A stretch of 40,103 bases of DNA, from NCBI GenBank assembly GCA_025458035.1, contig JALOTH010000028.1, positions 1-40,103 of the forward strand, in the 5' to 3' direction. Numbering within the stretch: the stretch's first letter is position 1; the number at the start of each line of letters is the position of its first letter. Below, piece after piece: positions 16,080 to 24,778 of this stretch. The notes under the pieces were generated by a model, which saw nothing but the letters and a program-made list of their open reading frames with translations, had not been told where the DNA came from and searched no databases. Made by a program: the position numbers and the translations under genes. The stretch is from Rhodospirillales bacterium (lineage in GTDB: Bacteria; Pseudomonadota; Alphaproteobacteria; Rhodospirillales; Defluviicoccaceae).

Positions 16080-16130
16080 TCAACTCTGGCGATGGGGCGT
16101 CGGCAAAGATGGTAACGGCAGTGGCCCCGC

Positions 16131-17828
<1,698 letters not shown>

Positions 17829-19440: not shown

Positions 19441-19527
19441 CGTAGCCCGTCATGGAGCGGAGCGGAATGCGGGGGATCCGTCGCGGCATCAAAACCTGGA
19501 TTTCGCTCACGCTCCATCCAGGCTACG
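19441..19527. repeat. Palindromic interspersed element 2
   Basis: Arms CGTAGCCCGTCATGGAGCGG (from 19441) and CTCCATCCAGGCTACG (ending 19527), about 33 bp each, imperfectly complementary. This is a different repeat type from element 1 but has the same hairpin design. A degenerate relative occurs at about 22030-22123. Confidence 0.7.
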
Positions 19528-19730: not shown

Positions 19731-20351
19731 TTACGTCGTGGCCTCCAGAATCGCATCACAGAATAGGACGAAGCTGTGCGAGTTCGAGCGCTGCCGCTCG
19801 ACCAAGGCCCCCAGCGTCCGGCCCGCCTCTACCTTGCGCAAACCCGTTTCAAAGTAGCCGTGCCGTTTGAGCACGCGTTCAAACGCCTCCCAGGTTCCGC
19901 CTTTGATCGCATCTGGATCGAGGAAACCTCGTTTGCGCACGATGCCTTGCGGCACATTCGGGTACGCGGCGCATACCGCCTGCCAATCGCCAAAGTACCA
20001 GGACTCGAGTTCCTCGATCGCGATGCGGTTGACCAACTGCCAAGCGAGATGTTTGCTGTGCGCGCGACTGACGAGTCCTGACCGCTGGGCCGTCGCCTCC
20101 AGACGCCGCTTCAGGTCATGGCAGTCTTGATCGTCGCGATCGACCACGACAACGATCCGCCAGTCCTCAGGAAGCCACGTCGCGTAAGCCCTGAGGCGCG
20201 CCTCCAGTTTATCGAATAAGTCATCCCTGCCCTGAAACGGGTGGACTTCGAAGGTGCGCTCGTCGGTTAACAGGCGCGGCAAGAGACCACGAAGGAAGGC
20301 CTCCATGGATGGCTCCTCGACAAGCAGTTCAAGATGCGTGGCTGGGATCAT
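19731..20351 (-). CDS. DUF4276 family, Toprim-like nuclease candidate
   Basis: Protein of 206 residues with the layout of DUF4276. The first strand [19 protein letters not shown] supplies a conserved Glu, and [15 protein letters not shown] supplies the acidic DxD-like pair near residue 70. Together these resemble the metal site of Toprim/OLD nucleases. [10 protein letters not shown] and KRGF follow, also recurrent in the family. Its start overlaps the stop of the upstream ATPase gene by 4 bp (ATGA), so the two are translationally coupled. The likely role is the effector nuclease of an ATPase-gated two-gene defence module; activity is inferred, not shown. Confidence 0.75.
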
Positions 20352-21559
20352 GAGCGGCCTGCGCGCGGCCGTGTCGGCGCACCCTGGTTAACCAGTGGGT
20401 CGCCCACCCCCAGTTGGCCTTCCATCCAAAGGTGGCCCAAGAGGGCGCCATGCTCAACGAACTCGCACACACCGGGAAGGTCAGCCGCGCGCTGCGTCTG
20501 GGTATAGCCCTGTTCGTCCCGCCAGAGCACACGTACTTCCTTCGGTTTCAGGGCGTTGAGAAAGAACGGGGAATGGGTCGTTACTAGAAGCTGCGTTCGC
20601 TCGATGGCCGCGCGGCATTCTTCGGCGAGTTCCGGTAGCAAGCGCGGGTGCAGGAAGTTCTCCGGCTCCTCAATTCCGATGAAGTGAGGCGGCGCTGGAT
20701 CGTAAAGGAGAACCAAATAGGCTAGGATCTTCAGCGTGCCGTCTGAGGCGAAGCGCGCGAGAACCGGATTACTGAAGGGCGCGTCCTTGATCTGCAGGAG
20801 CAGGCGCCCGTCTGGCATGGTATCCGCCAGAACCTTCTCAATACGTGGCACCCGGTGTCGCAAGACATCAAATATCTTGTTCAGATGGTCCTCGTGACTT
20901 TCAGCCAAGTACTGGATGACGTTGGCCAAGTTATCGCCGCTCTTTGTCAGCCGCTCCTGTGGTCCGGCCTCCGGCTGGCCACGCGCGCTGTCTGCCGAAA
21001 GATAGGAAACGTACCATCCCGTGATGAAGTCGCGCAGGGCCGCCACTCGCGGATGTTCCGCGAACTGGCCCAGTGCATTCACCGCCAGCAGGTCGGCACT
21101 CTTGAGTGGAGTGTCAACGCGCTTATCCTCGGCATCGGGCTGATCGCCGCTCACCGCCTTGCCTTCCCCCTCGCGGTAATCAAGAAAACGGAACGGTCTT
21201 CCGTGCGAGCCGCGCTTCCATTGCAACCACTCCTCGACGACCACAGGCGCGTTGTTGCGTTCGTCTACTGTCAGGTGATAGGTGATCAGCGGGTATTCGG
21301 GCTCGCGGTACTTGATCTCGATGAGCACCGGCCCGTCGCCGCCTCGGGTTTTGAGCTCCTTCGCCCGGCCGCGCTTGTCCCAGGCGCGACGCAGACCCAG
21401 TTCGAAGCACTCGGCCAGGAAGGCGAAAACGTCAAACACCGTGGATTTGCCGCTGCCGTTAGGCCCGAGCAATACGGTCAGTGGCGTTAGCTCCTTGAGT
21501 TCTACATCGCGCAAGGCGCGGAAGTTTCTAACCTTGAGATATTCAATACGTGGTGGCAT
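20348..21559 (-). CDS. AAA/ABC-type ATPase (COG4637-like)
   Basis: Soluble 403-residue SMC/OLD-type ATPase. N-terminal [17 protein letters not shown] leads to the Walker [10 protein letters not shown] at residues 32-40. The lid holds an ABC-signature-like [11 protein letters not shown]; Walker [14 protein letters not shown] is near residue 295 and the switch His is in [11 protein letters not shown]. This is the AAA_21 layout. It precedes and overlaps the DUF4276 gene. Such ATPase plus Toprim-like pairs are comparable to split forms of OLD/Gabija or to PARIS. Composition is visibly less GC-rich than neighbouring core genes, which suggests acquisition by transfer. Confidence 0.85.
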
Positions 21560-22176
21560 GTGCTGGCCCCGGTCGCGTTGGATTCATGCTTACTTCTCTG
21601 ACAAAGTCATTGCCGCGTCATTTAAAGGACCTTGCCCTAGACCAGCTTGGGCAGCAGCTCGCGTAATGCGTAATAGCGACAGGTCATTGGGCCACATGGT
21701 TTCATGCGCGCATATTCAACCACCAAGGAATACATCTTAGCTCAATCCGCTATGATGTCTAATTATACTCCGATACCGGACCCTGAGTGGGTTCGCAATG
21801 GTCCACCCACCGAGCCCGCAACTGGGATTTCTCGTCAAGCGGCCAAGGTTGGCGGGTTGCGGCGGCGGCGGCGATCGGCCAGCCTTACCCGCGGCGGCCC
21901 ATCGCCGCGCGGTGATCGGGCGCTCCGACGCGGTACGGCCAGCGCGCGGCTGCCCCGGCGATGACGACAAATGATGACAGATGACGACACAATCGCCCGG
22001 ACTGGAACATCTTGTGTCTGTTTTCAATGGGTTAGCGAGCGTAGCGAGCGTAGCGAAATCCGGGTTTACCTGCCGCGGAGGTTCCCGCATTCCGCTGCGC
22101 TTCATGCTGGATACAGGTTACCGTGCGCAGCAAACCGGACATAATCACGGCGGCACCACCATGTCTGTTCCTGTGA
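21560..22176. other. Gene-free stretch upstream of the ATPase, with repeat copy A
   Basis: About 617 bp. The first 260 bp (to about 21820) are the most AT-rich stretch of the island and should hold the ATPase promoter, but I could not fix one. The rest is repeat copy A and a degenerate palindromic element at 22030-22123 related to the one at 19441. No convincing ORF. Confidence 0.6.
21824..22033 (+). repeat. 210-bp direct repeat, copy A
   Basis: Aligns without gaps to copy B (22787-22996). The first 175 bp are close to identical, running from GGGATTTCTCGTCAAGC to the end of GACGACACAATCGCCC; the last 35 bp are more diverged. It contains three TGACGACA-like octamers at 21962, 21972 and 21982, exactly 10 bp apart. 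The copies flank the HicAB pair in the same orientation. Confidence 0.9.
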
Positions 22177-22407
22177 TCATCGGTCTGTGGCCAGGAACTG
22201 CGCTACCGATACTCCCGCTTGCTTTAGGATGGCACGTAGAGTTCCCTGCGGTATGTCGCCGGGGTGGTTGGGGATCGTCGTATATCGCTTCGTTTCTGGG
22301 TTGTACCAGGTCTCATGACTGCCGGCCGCTTGCCGATCGAAGCGAAACCCAAGTTGTCTCAGCCGCCGAACGACATCGCGATAGCGATAGCCGGCAAGTG
22401 TCCCCAT
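22177..22407 (-). CDS. hicA: HicA-family mRNA interferase toxin
   Basis: Small (76 residues) double-stranded-RNA-binding-fold toxin that cuts mRNA when free. The motif sequence is typical: RYRDVVRRLRQLGF, then GSHETWYNP with the catalytic His, IPNHPGDIPQGTLRAILKQAG. The ATG overlaps the stop of the upstream antitoxin gene by one base (TGATG). It sits between two direct repeats, as part of a compact cassette. Some HicA homologues start a few residues later, which does not alter the call. Confidence 0.9.
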   Translation of the reverse strand: MGTLAGYRYRDVVRRLRQLGFRFDRQAAGSHETWYNPETKRYTTIPNHPGDIPQGTLRAILKQAGVSVAQFLATDR

Positions 22408-22673
22408 CAGTCGCTGACGACGAGGGGATAGTCGAACGCCTCGGCCGCTATCGGCGGCGCAGCAGTTGGTTCGCGCTCCGCCTGCGCTTCCAGCAGGCGC
22501 CGGGCCACATCACGGGCGATTTCGAGCGTCTCGGTGATGGTTCGACCTTGAGCGACCAGGCCTTGCACCTCGTCCGACGTTGCCAGGTAGACCCCTTCCG
22601 GCAGTTTCTCGACTCGAACGTTGACGATCCGCTCCATTGGGGCTGCCCGCTCCGAAGTTGTACGCACGCTCAT
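22407..22673 (-). CDS. hicB: HicB-like antitoxin
   Basis: Partner of HicA, which it neutralises by binding and usually autoregulates. The partial RNase-H-like HicB fold shows in MERIVNVRVEKLPEGVYLAT and VQGLVAQGRTITETLEIARDVARRLLE. The last 25 residues are Ala/Pro-rich and no DNA-binding domain is evident, so it is of the short DUF1902-like type. The antitoxin comes first and the toxin second. An in-frame ATG at 22637 (MERIVNV) has a GGAGCGGG site and could be the true start rather than 22673. Confidence 0.82.
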   Translation of the reverse strand: MSVRTTSERAAPMERIVNVRVEKLPEGVYLATSDEVQGLVAQGRTITETLEIARDVARRLLEAQAEREPTAAPPIAAEAFDYPLVVSD

Positions 22674-22786: not shown

Positions 22787-22996
22787 GGGATTTCTCGTCA
22801 AGCCGCCGGGGTTGGCGGGTTGCGGCGGCGGCGCCGATCGGCCAGCCTTACCCGTGGCGGCCCATCGCCGGGCGGTGATCGGGCGGCCCGTCGCGGCGCG
22901 GCCAGCGGGCGGCTGCCCCGGCGATGACGACAAATGATGACAGATGACGACACAATCGCCCAGCCCGGAAAATATTATGTTTTTTTTCAACGCGTT
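22787..22996 (+). repeat. 210-bp direct repeat, copy B
   Basis: Second copy of the element at 21824-22033, same orientation and same length over the aligned part. It contains octamers at 22925, 22935 and 22945. No terminal inverted repeats or target duplications were seen, so it is not an obvious insertion sequence. Confidence 0.9.
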
Positions 22997-23093
22997 GTGC
23001 ATTCGACATGACGACATTTGACGACATCGTGACGACACCGGTGACGACATCGGCCCGTAGAACTGACGACATCGTGACGACAGGCTGACGACA
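22925..23093 (+). repeat. Phased TGACGACA octamer array
   Basis: Ten copies of TGACGACA, nine exact and one TGATGACA, start at 22925, 22935, 22945, 23009, 23019, 23030, 23042, 23064, 23075 and 23086. Spacings are mostly 10-12 bp or 22 bp, so nearly all lie on one face of the helix. This looks like an iteron or operator array. It ends 114 bp before the gamma-glutamyltransferase start. Confidence 0.85.
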
Positions 23094-23206: not shown

Positions 23207-24778
23207 ATGACCGTCCCCGGCGCCGTCGCCGCCGGCCACCCGGAAACCTGCCGGGCCGCCGTCGACATCCTTAACGCCGGCGGCAACGCCGTCGACGCGG
23301 CGCTGGCGGCGATGGCGGTCGCCTGCATCGCCGAGCCGGCGCTCGCCTCGCTGGGTGGCGGCGGCTTCCTTCTGTCGGCGATGGCCAGCGGCCGCCATGC
23401 GGGGACCCGCGTCGTCCACGACTTCTTCGTCAACACCCCCGGACAGCGGCCGCCGCGCCCCGACGCCATCGACTTCCGCCCCGTGCACGCCGAGTTCGGC
23501 GCCACCCGCCAGGAGTTCCACATCGGCCGCGCCGCCATCGCCGTGCCGGGGATCGTCCGCGGCCTGTTCGCCGCCCACCGCGACCTCGGGCGGATGCCGA
23601 TCGCCGCCGTCGTCGAGCCGGCGGTCCGCTGCGCCCGCGACGGCGTGCCGCTGGCGCCGGCGCAGGCCGACATCCTCGCCATCATCGATGCCATCATCGG
23701 CGCGACGCCGGCCGCCCGCGCCCTGTTCGCCAGCCCCGACCGTCCGGGCGCGCGCATCGGCGCCGGCGAGCGGCTGCGCTGGCCCCGCCTCGCCGACGTG
23801 CTGGAGACGCTGGCGATCGAGGGCGATGAGCTGTTCTACCGCGGCGAGATCGCCAGACAGATCGTCGCCGACGCCAGCGCCGGCGGCGCGACGCTGAGCC
23901 TCGACGATTTCGCCCGCTACCGGGTCGAACACCGCCCGCCGCTGACGCGCCGCGCCTGCGGCGCCGAGATCCTGCTCAACCCGCCGCCGGCGAGCGGCGG
24001 CGTGCTGCTGGCGCTGGCGCTGGCGCTGATCGATGACCGCCGCCTCGCCGGCCACGGCTTCGCGACGGCGGCGGCGCTGGACGAGACGATCGCGGTGATG
24101 GCGGCGGCCCAGCAGGCGCGCCTGGACGCCGGCGAGGGTGGCGACGAGGAAGCGGCGGCGCTCGACCGGCTGTGCGATCCGGCGCTGATCGCGCTGTGGC
24201 GGCGGCGCATCGCCGGCCGGCCGCGGGCGCTGCGCGGCACCACCCACATCAGCGTCGTCGACGGCGAGGGCAATGCCGCCGCGCTGTCGCTGTCCAACGG
24301 CGAAGGCTCCGCCTATGTCGTCCCCGGCACCGACATCATGATGAACAACATGCTGGGCGAGGACGACCTGGCGCCCCGCGGCTTTCACCGCTGGCAGCCG
24401 GCGACGCGGATGACGTCGATGATGGCGCCGACGCTGGTGACGACGGCGGCGGGCGAGCGCATCGCCCTCGGCTCCGGCGGTTCCAACCGCATCCGCACGG
24501 CGATGCTGCAGGTGCTGGTCAATCACCTCGTCTTCGGCCTGCCGCTCGCCGACGCCATCGCCGCGCCGCGCCTGCACTACGAAGCGGACGCGCTGTCGAT
24601 CGAACCGGGCTTTGCCGAAGCCGAGCTGGCGCGCCTTCTCGCCGCCCATCCATCCGCCGTCGTCTGGCCGGCGCTCAGCATGTTCTTCGGCGGCGTTCAT
24701 GCGGCGGCACGCAGCGGCGCCGGCCGCTTCATCGCGGCGGCGGACGCACGCCGTGGCGGTGCTGCCCATGCCGGCTGA
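23207..24778 (+). CDS. Gamma-glutamyltransferase family protein
   Basis: Ntn-hydrolase that transfers or hydrolyses gamma-glutamyl groups from glutathione-like substrates, after self-cleavage into two subunits. The catalytic Thr is in GTTHISVVDGEGNAAALS near residue 345. Other family blocks are GGNAVDAALAAMA, SLGGGGFLL, LNPPPASGG and GSGGSNRIRTAM. The 523 residues start directly with the enzyme domain, so no export signal is evident, unlike classic periplasmic GGT. It may be a cytoplasmic family member with a different substrate. It is followed 49 bp later by purU. Confidence 0.9.
   Translation: MTVPGAVAAGHPETCRAAVDILNAGGNAVDAALAAMAVACIAEPALASLGGGGFLLSAMASGRHAGTRVVHDFFVNTPGQRPPRPDAIDFRPVHAEFGATRQEFHIGRAAIAVPGIVRGLFAAHRDLGRMPIAAVVEPAVRCARDGVPLAPAQADILAIIDAIIGATPAARALFASPDRPGARIGAGERLRWPRLADVLETLAIEGDELFYRGEIARQIVADASAGGATLSLDDFARYRVEHRPPLTRRACGAEILLNPPPASGGVLLALALALIDDRRLAGHGFATAAALDETIAVMAAAQQARLDAGEGGDEEAAALDRLCDPALIALWRRRIAGRPRALRGTTHISVVDGEGNAAALSLSNGEGSAYVVPGTDIMMNNMLGEDDLAPRGFHRWQPATRMTSMMAPTLVTTAAGERIALGSGGSNRIRTAMLQVLVNHLVFGLPLADAIAAPRLHYEADALSIEPGFAEAELARLLAAHPSAVVWPALSMFFGGVHAAARSGAGRFIAAADARRGGAAHAG

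Follow-up and report, generated by a model that had tools for sequence, protein, structure and literature searches.

A phased octamer array beside hicAB is one copy of a dispersed element with an IHF-type site in two Defluviicoccus genomes

What is the run of near-identical octamers that lies between a hicB-like antitoxin gene and a gamma-glutamyltransferase gene in a Rhodospirillales genome, and does it serve either neighbour? The window analysed here is a stretch of 40,103 nucleotides from a Defluviicoccus MAG (3.1 Mb, 96% complete), hereafter G000. An earlier note, made from the sequence alone, had described ten phased octamers there, nine of them exact, and three more in a second repeat copy, all of which are present at the positions and spacings it gave. 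In copy B, the octamers start at 22925, 22935 (TGATGACA), 22945, 23009, 23019, 23030, 23042, 23064, 23075 and 23086, at start-to-start distances of 10, 10, 64, 10, 11, 12, 22, 11 and 11 bp, nine of the ten being exact TGACGACA; in copy A, they start at 21962, 21972 (TGATGACA) and 21982. The array also stands above background: the window holds 12 exact TGACGACA against 1.08 expected from dinucleotide shuffles (0 of 100 shuffles with at least 12, maximum 4), and a pattern of three close octamers finds 42 matches across G000 where the same pattern read backward, as a control, finds 0. In TRF, the array scored as a weak tandem repeat with a unit of 11-12 bp. The 64-bp gap of copy B is occupied by an IHF-type site, TCAACGCGTTG, at 22987-22997, 42 bp past octamer 22945, and hicAB is placed between copies A and B. 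The features are as follows.

21824..22033, + strand: copy A, a partial element that ends at its IHF-type site; identity to copy B 90% (repeat search, genome self-search)
21833..21862, + strand: CGTC-tagged imperfect palindrome of copy A, CGTCAAGCGGCCAAGGTTGGCGGGTTGCGG (PWM 45.5; predicted hairpin z = -3.0)
21962..21989, + strand: three octamers of copy A at 10-bp spacing, the middle one TGATGACA
22024..22034, + strand: IHF-type site of copy A, TCAATGGGTTA, 42 bp past the start of octamer 21982, the offset found at other loci
22210..22383, - strand: hicA toxin gene, a neighbour outside the element (PF07927, 75.8 bits)
22407..22673, - strand: hicB-like antitoxin ORF, a neighbour (borderline DUF1902 match, at the cut-off)
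22796..22825, + strand: CGTC-tagged imperfect palindrome of copy B, CGTCAAGCCGCCGGGGTTGGCGGGTTGCGG (PWM 38.5; predicted hairpin -11.2 kcal/mol, z = -4.1)
22925..22952, + strand: first arm of copy B, octamers 22925, 22935 (TGATGACA) and 22945 at 10-bp spacing, conserved in the element alignment
22987..22997, + strand: IHF-type site of copy B, TCAACGCGTTG, with core TCAANNNNTTR, offset 42 from octamer 22945
23009..23093, + strand: second arm of copy B, seven exact TGACGACA at spacings of 10, 11, 12, 22, 11 and 11 bp
23207..24778, + strand: gamma-glutamyltransferase gene, right-hand neighbour (codon-based gene call, 523 aa; name from the earlier note)

Copy A thus covers part of the element, from the palindrome to the IHF-type site. 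The gamma-glutamyltransferase gene begins 113 bp after the last octamer and has homologues of 50-59% amino acid identity in relatives. The window holds other features as well. A separate dispersed repeat, GCGTAGCGAAATCCGGG...GCATTCCGCTGCGCTTCATGC, lies at 22046-22118 and at 19451-19514 (- strand) and resembles a GTAG-type REP; further copies occur in contigs C134 and C108, at three places in contig C15 of the congener G004 and once in Defluviicoccus sp. SSA4. An AAA ATPase and DUF4276 (TOPRIM-like) gene pair (19731-21559, - strand), between a tpiA-like gene and the hicAB region, is weakly similar to defence ATPases and has a homologous pair in contig 6 of the congener G003. Finally, a perfect tandem repeat at 16130-16228 (26-bp unit CGCGCAAGCGCCGAAACAGATCAAGC, 3.8 copies) overlaps the 3' end of a pyrG-like gene.

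The window array belongs to a dispersed element of about 230 bp that is present in about 20 copies in each of two Defluviicoccus genomes, and what the earlier note had seen is a single copy of this larger unit. The octamer pattern, a DNA self-search and a looser pattern that added contig C151 together gave 21 element loci in G000, the window counted; several lie at contig ends of the MAG, and two (L059 and L071) are 92% identical. Pattern searches gave 20 loci in the complete genome of Defluviicoccus sp. SSA4 (CP058705), which is placed in the same genus and whose sequence carries frameshifts and Ns. Three further congeners (G002-G004) have 0 or 1 element each and no amplified family; the single copies in G003 and G004 consist of an arm of three octamers (the 3x arm) with an IHF-type site, in the geometry seen in G000, and precede an aldo/keto reductase gene. 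G019, a genome of another family in the same order, carries four copies in which a 3x-type arm is followed by an IHF core after about 43 bp. From these single and outlying copies, we conclude that the 3x arm with its IHF-type site predates the genus and underwent separate amplification in two species. Related elements at three G019 loci (L293-L295) are followed on the right by another phased repeat, GTTAAAACGTCAT, and two of them have an extra IHF-type site left of the octamers. The array-plus-core pattern had 0 matches in a sample of 384 other alphaproteobacteria, Rfam gave no match to an RNA family, and the papers listed for TGACGACA concern primers or oligos in unrelated settings. The Defluviicoccus genome paper mentions repeats solely as CRISPR-associated.

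The copies share a common anatomy. The order in G000 is hairpin, 3x octamers, IHF-type site and long array, and in SSA4 long array, inverted octamer, IHF-type site and 3x octamers. With the copies anchored on their octamers, an 11-mer TCAA-NNNN-TTR lies between the two arms, which is the core of the strict IHF consensus WATCAANNNNTTR used in PMC10380432. In G000, the core was sought at a fixed position, 42 bp past the start of the last 3x-arm octamer, in every element with a 3x arm (18 elements). It is exact at 42-43 bp in 14 of 17 and has one mismatch in two (L065, L067), with no match at the 42-bp offset in L063; this count omits L066, where the core is absent at 42 and found at +53 owing to an extra degenerate octamer, and with L066 it becomes 15/18. 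The inner four bases vary (TGGG, CGCG, TCCG, TACG, TGTG, TAGG, TATG, GGTG) between constant flanks. In SSA4, the core is present in 18/20 elements, and an A at its -1 position in 17/18, compared with only 6/15 in G000. Genes for both IHF subunits are encoded in G000, with alpha (NF001401/TIGR00987) and beta (TIGR00988) above cut-off.

Within the arms of both genomes, 195 of 196 spacings fall at 10-12, 20-23, 32-34 or 45-46 bp. The octamers are near-exact and the linkers variable in the element alignment, and the octamers of G000 all share one orientation. The one-face phasing proposed in the earlier note is partly borne out: the spacings do cluster helically, but the phasing is only rough, as the period that fits best is near 11.25 bp and the octamer sites therefore drift slowly round the helix, and the phase across the IHF-type site would be set by the bend. 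What does stand is the appearance of a cooperatively bound protein array, given the near-exact octamers, the varying linkers, the helical spacing and an IHF-type site that, in two genomes, is well placed and separates the two arms. Accumulation of octamers as a neutral, expanding minisatellite, which the earlier note had named as its own refutation, would suit the octamer number per arm, which differs among copies. Against this, the arm-to-IHF distance is fixed at 42-43 bp, the TCAA and TTR are invariant round a variable N4, the linkers are interrupted and varied, and one unit recurs both at loci with nothing else in common and in a second family. Since neither the fixed geometry nor the recurrence at about 20 unrelated loci is expected of slippage, we regard the minisatellite as very improbable.

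Most G000 loci have an imperfect palindrome, CGTCAAGCSGCCRAGGTTGGCGGGTTGCGG, on the left, at a distance of 92-137 bp from the 3x arm. CGTC-tagged REPs of alphaproteobacteria carry a CGTC tag, an 8-9 bp stem and a 4-5 nt loop (PMC3733652), a description that most G000 palindromes fit, several with mismatched stems; four of the five copies folded gave predicted hairpins with 4-nt loops. The likeness extends to a stem of 8-9 bp starting with two A-T pairs (PMC3733652). The G000 module differs in being one part of a longer element, in a tail that is not CCA and in some copies that read GGTC or TGTC, and most SSA4 elements showed no such hairpin. The G000 hairpin is better read as a CGTC-type REP. 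A role for it as recombinase core was considered and dropped, as it fits the published CGTC-REP description and toxin-antitoxin genes lie on both its sides.

The genes that flank the elements, called by a codon-usage caller trained on the window and checked against the window's known genes, bear directly on the suggestion that hicB or the gamma-glutamyltransferase gene is the target. An operator or enhancer for one of them would explain why the array sits between both, and antitoxins often bind phased operators, which also speaks for it. However, twenty other loci carry the element without these genes, beside unrelated neighbours with five antitoxin types or none, and the hicB relatives of SSA4, at 138.5 kb, have no element. 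The orientation of flanking genes in G000 is random (4 divergent, 4 convergent, 8 tandem), which makes an operator for either gene unlikely. Taken together, this reading is strongly disfavoured, and we give it hardly any weight.

Toxin-antitoxin modules are unevenly placed around the G000 elements: they occupy the left side at 8 of 17 assessable loci and the right side, where called genes were inspected, at 0 of 20 (p = 6e-4). Of the six HicA matches in G000, four have an element at a distance of about 1 kb or less (p = 8e-7). The p-values treat the loci as more independent than warranted, as the copies are related by descent. The left-side modules are HicAB at the window and L059, a HicB-type gene with a nearby HicA match at L061 and L065, Phd/PIN at L066, VapBC at L072, MntA/HepT at L077 and MbcA/RES at L060; ordinary chromosomal genes lie on the right. 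hicAB is absent at most element copies. The side of the hairpin on which the modules lie differs (L059 compared with other loci), so there is no single insertion point. Four SSA4 loci carry a joint duplication of a TPR gene and the element, and these copies share a right boundary some 30 bp beyond the last octamer. No gene family is common to all element neighbours; there are only the TPR duplicates and scattered toxin-antitoxin genes. The flanks are not syntenic in the relatives compared, which are too diverged for filled and empty pairs.

Other genes were seen near elements. TIR/SEFIR-domain genes lie near SSA4 elements at L203, L209, L211 and L212, and REP-associated tyrosine transposase genes or fragments near elements of SSA4 and G000 at L213, L059, L072 and L206. 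PF01797 had no match in G000 and SSA4. Relatives of the REP transposase number two in about 227 kb of element loci, the query's own locus included, and none in a 400 kb sample of SSA4, numbers too small to establish an association.

A clue to the octamer-binding protein comes from other bacteria. A collection-wide search with the octamer pattern, together with a viral scan, listed 68 matches outside Defluviicoccus with 12-bp spacing, which is expected in coding sequence, and 34 others, mostly phased at 10-11 bp; all counts here refer to the matches listed. A tRNA gene lies within 700 bp of 12 of these 34 listed matches and of 1 of the 68 spaced at 12 bp (p = 4e-6). Among the matches listed, phased TGACGACA triplets in four contigs sit next to a tyrosine integrase gene, at its 3' end, and one of the four integrases has a Tn916-type arm-binding domain. 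Such positions, beside tRNA and integrase genes, are where attachment-site arms lie. The recurrence of phased triplets at tRNA and integrase loci elsewhere is our main ground for preferring a recombinase to a regulator as octamer binder. The link of the elements to integrase arm sites, one of motif and position only, may be convergent. As an observation of its own, the arrays at L110, L114, L145 and L194 (Clostridia/Firmicutes and a viral contig), about 40-120 bp from tyrosine integrase 3' ends, might represent an arm-site motif common to unrelated integrases. Within G000 and SSA4, the integrase genes checked had no octamer array in the surrounding 1.5 kb or so, the arm domains of the classified integrases are of other types, and no conserved crossover core was shared by the two genomes. 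A tyrosine recombinase encoded beside the element arrays was looked for; none was found.

These results lead us to favour, tentatively and at somewhat less than even odds, an IHF-bent assembly in which the octamers serve as arm-type sites of a candidate recombinase acting in trans. Mechanistically, IHF would bind the central TCAANNNNTTR and bend the DNA sharply, and the bend would bring the two phased TGACGACA arms together, where the octamers of both would be bound by one sequence-specific protein. This binder would most likely be the arm-binding part of a tyrosine-recombinase-type system, supplied in trans, and the element would correspond in its working to that half of a phage or ICE attachment site which holds the arms and IHF. 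Recombination, in turn, could account for the dispersal of element-plus-neighbour units, namely toxin-antitoxin modules and, in SSA4, TPR genes. The anatomy, copy number, fixed geometry, IHF genes, toxin-antitoxin association, TPR co-duplication and arm-like arrays elsewhere were computed directly; from them we infer protein binding, bending and recombination. Several results weigh against the recombination role: the integrase genes checked have no array nearby and the classified ones carry other arm domains, the two genomes share no crossover core, the hairpin reads better as a REP, toxin-antitoxin genes lie on both its sides, and the G000 octamers all point one way. The protein-assembly layer by itself, an IHF-centred complex with two octamer arms, we consider highly probable.

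Close behind comes an interspersed architectural or regulatory repeat, which we hold to be a real though slightly weaker possibility: IHF and a host DNA-binding protein would bend or loop the DNA, insulating or organising the chromosome, the repeat having been dispersed either as a MITE or along with REP-type hairpins, while the toxin-antitoxin association would reflect shared permissive sites. The intergenic copies in random orientation, their spread round the SSA4 chromosome, the CGTC-tagged hairpin at one end, typical of alphaproteobacterial REPs, the REP-associated transposase genes near two element loci and the IHF sites already known in dispersed elements are all consistent with it. It does not, however, predict the one-sided toxin-antitoxin association or the co-duplication of gene and element, long double octamer arms are absent from described REP/BIME and Correia elements, and TGACGACA recurs at integrase and tRNA loci in other bacteria. 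A bolder version of the recombinase reading, in which attP-like docking sites form an integron-like cassette system, with a trans recombinase, TGACGACA arms and IHF placing the cargo, seems rather unlikely; its cargo, with the same low likelihood, would be the toxin-antitoxin pairs and TIR/TPR genes beside about 20 dispersed sites.

In P1 parS and plasmid parC, repeated protein sites fall into two groups with IHF or a bend in the middle, and the iterons measure about 11 bp. A centromere-like or initiator-titration site, comparable to parC, P1 parS or datA and bound by a ParR/ParB/Rep-like protein, would account for two same-orientation arrays of about 11 bp round a central bend and for about 20 copies round the chromosome. 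The SSA4 copies, however, are spread in a way compatible with random, with one gap of about 900 kb, plasmid, phage and viral-contig records gave no match to the element, and it is not amplified in the three congeners; we judge this explanation improbable.

The element has a readable layout, two near-exact octamer arms at a fixed helical distance from an IHF-type site; most dispersed repeats of bacteria are hairpins whose interior shows little logic. It was amplified separately in two species, in one of which it is associated with toxin-antitoxin genes. Should it be a docking site for recombination, it would illustrate a non-integron way of scattering gene cassettes; if architectural, it would be a defined IHF-centred complex built twenty times in one chromosome. 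In either reading, about 230 bp of defined DNA can serve as bait for the octamer-binding protein.

Among known systems, P1 parS and parC share with the element a centre formed by IHF or a bend, flanked by two groups of sites of about 11-bp period, and differ from its roughly 20 chromosomal copies; no par genes were seen adjoining the copies examined. Correia/NEMIS repeats of Neisseria are likewise dispersed and intergenic, about 150 bp long in Correia, with an internal IHF site, but those of the Correia type end in 24-bp inverted repeats and show target duplications, and no inverted repeats bounding the present element were found. The BIME-1/RIB/RIP composites of E. coli, with IHF sites between REP palindromes, resemble it as dispersed intergenic composites with an IHF-type site and a REP-type hairpin; the element has octamer arms, only about 20 copies and, in G000 only, one hairpin on one side, in place of inverted palindromes flanking the IHF-type site. 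The lambda-type intasome, assembled on about 240 bp of DNA, has arm-type repeats of about 10 bp close to IHF sites (PMC4880445). The element departs from it in its roughly 20 dispersed copies, with no adjacent integrase or common crossover core found, and in G000 arms that all share one orientation, unlike those of lambda attP. It resembles a lambda-type att site in its arrays of about 10-bp repeats near an IHF-type site (PMC4880445), and in that phased TGACGACA triplets adjoin integrase and tRNA genes in other bacteria.
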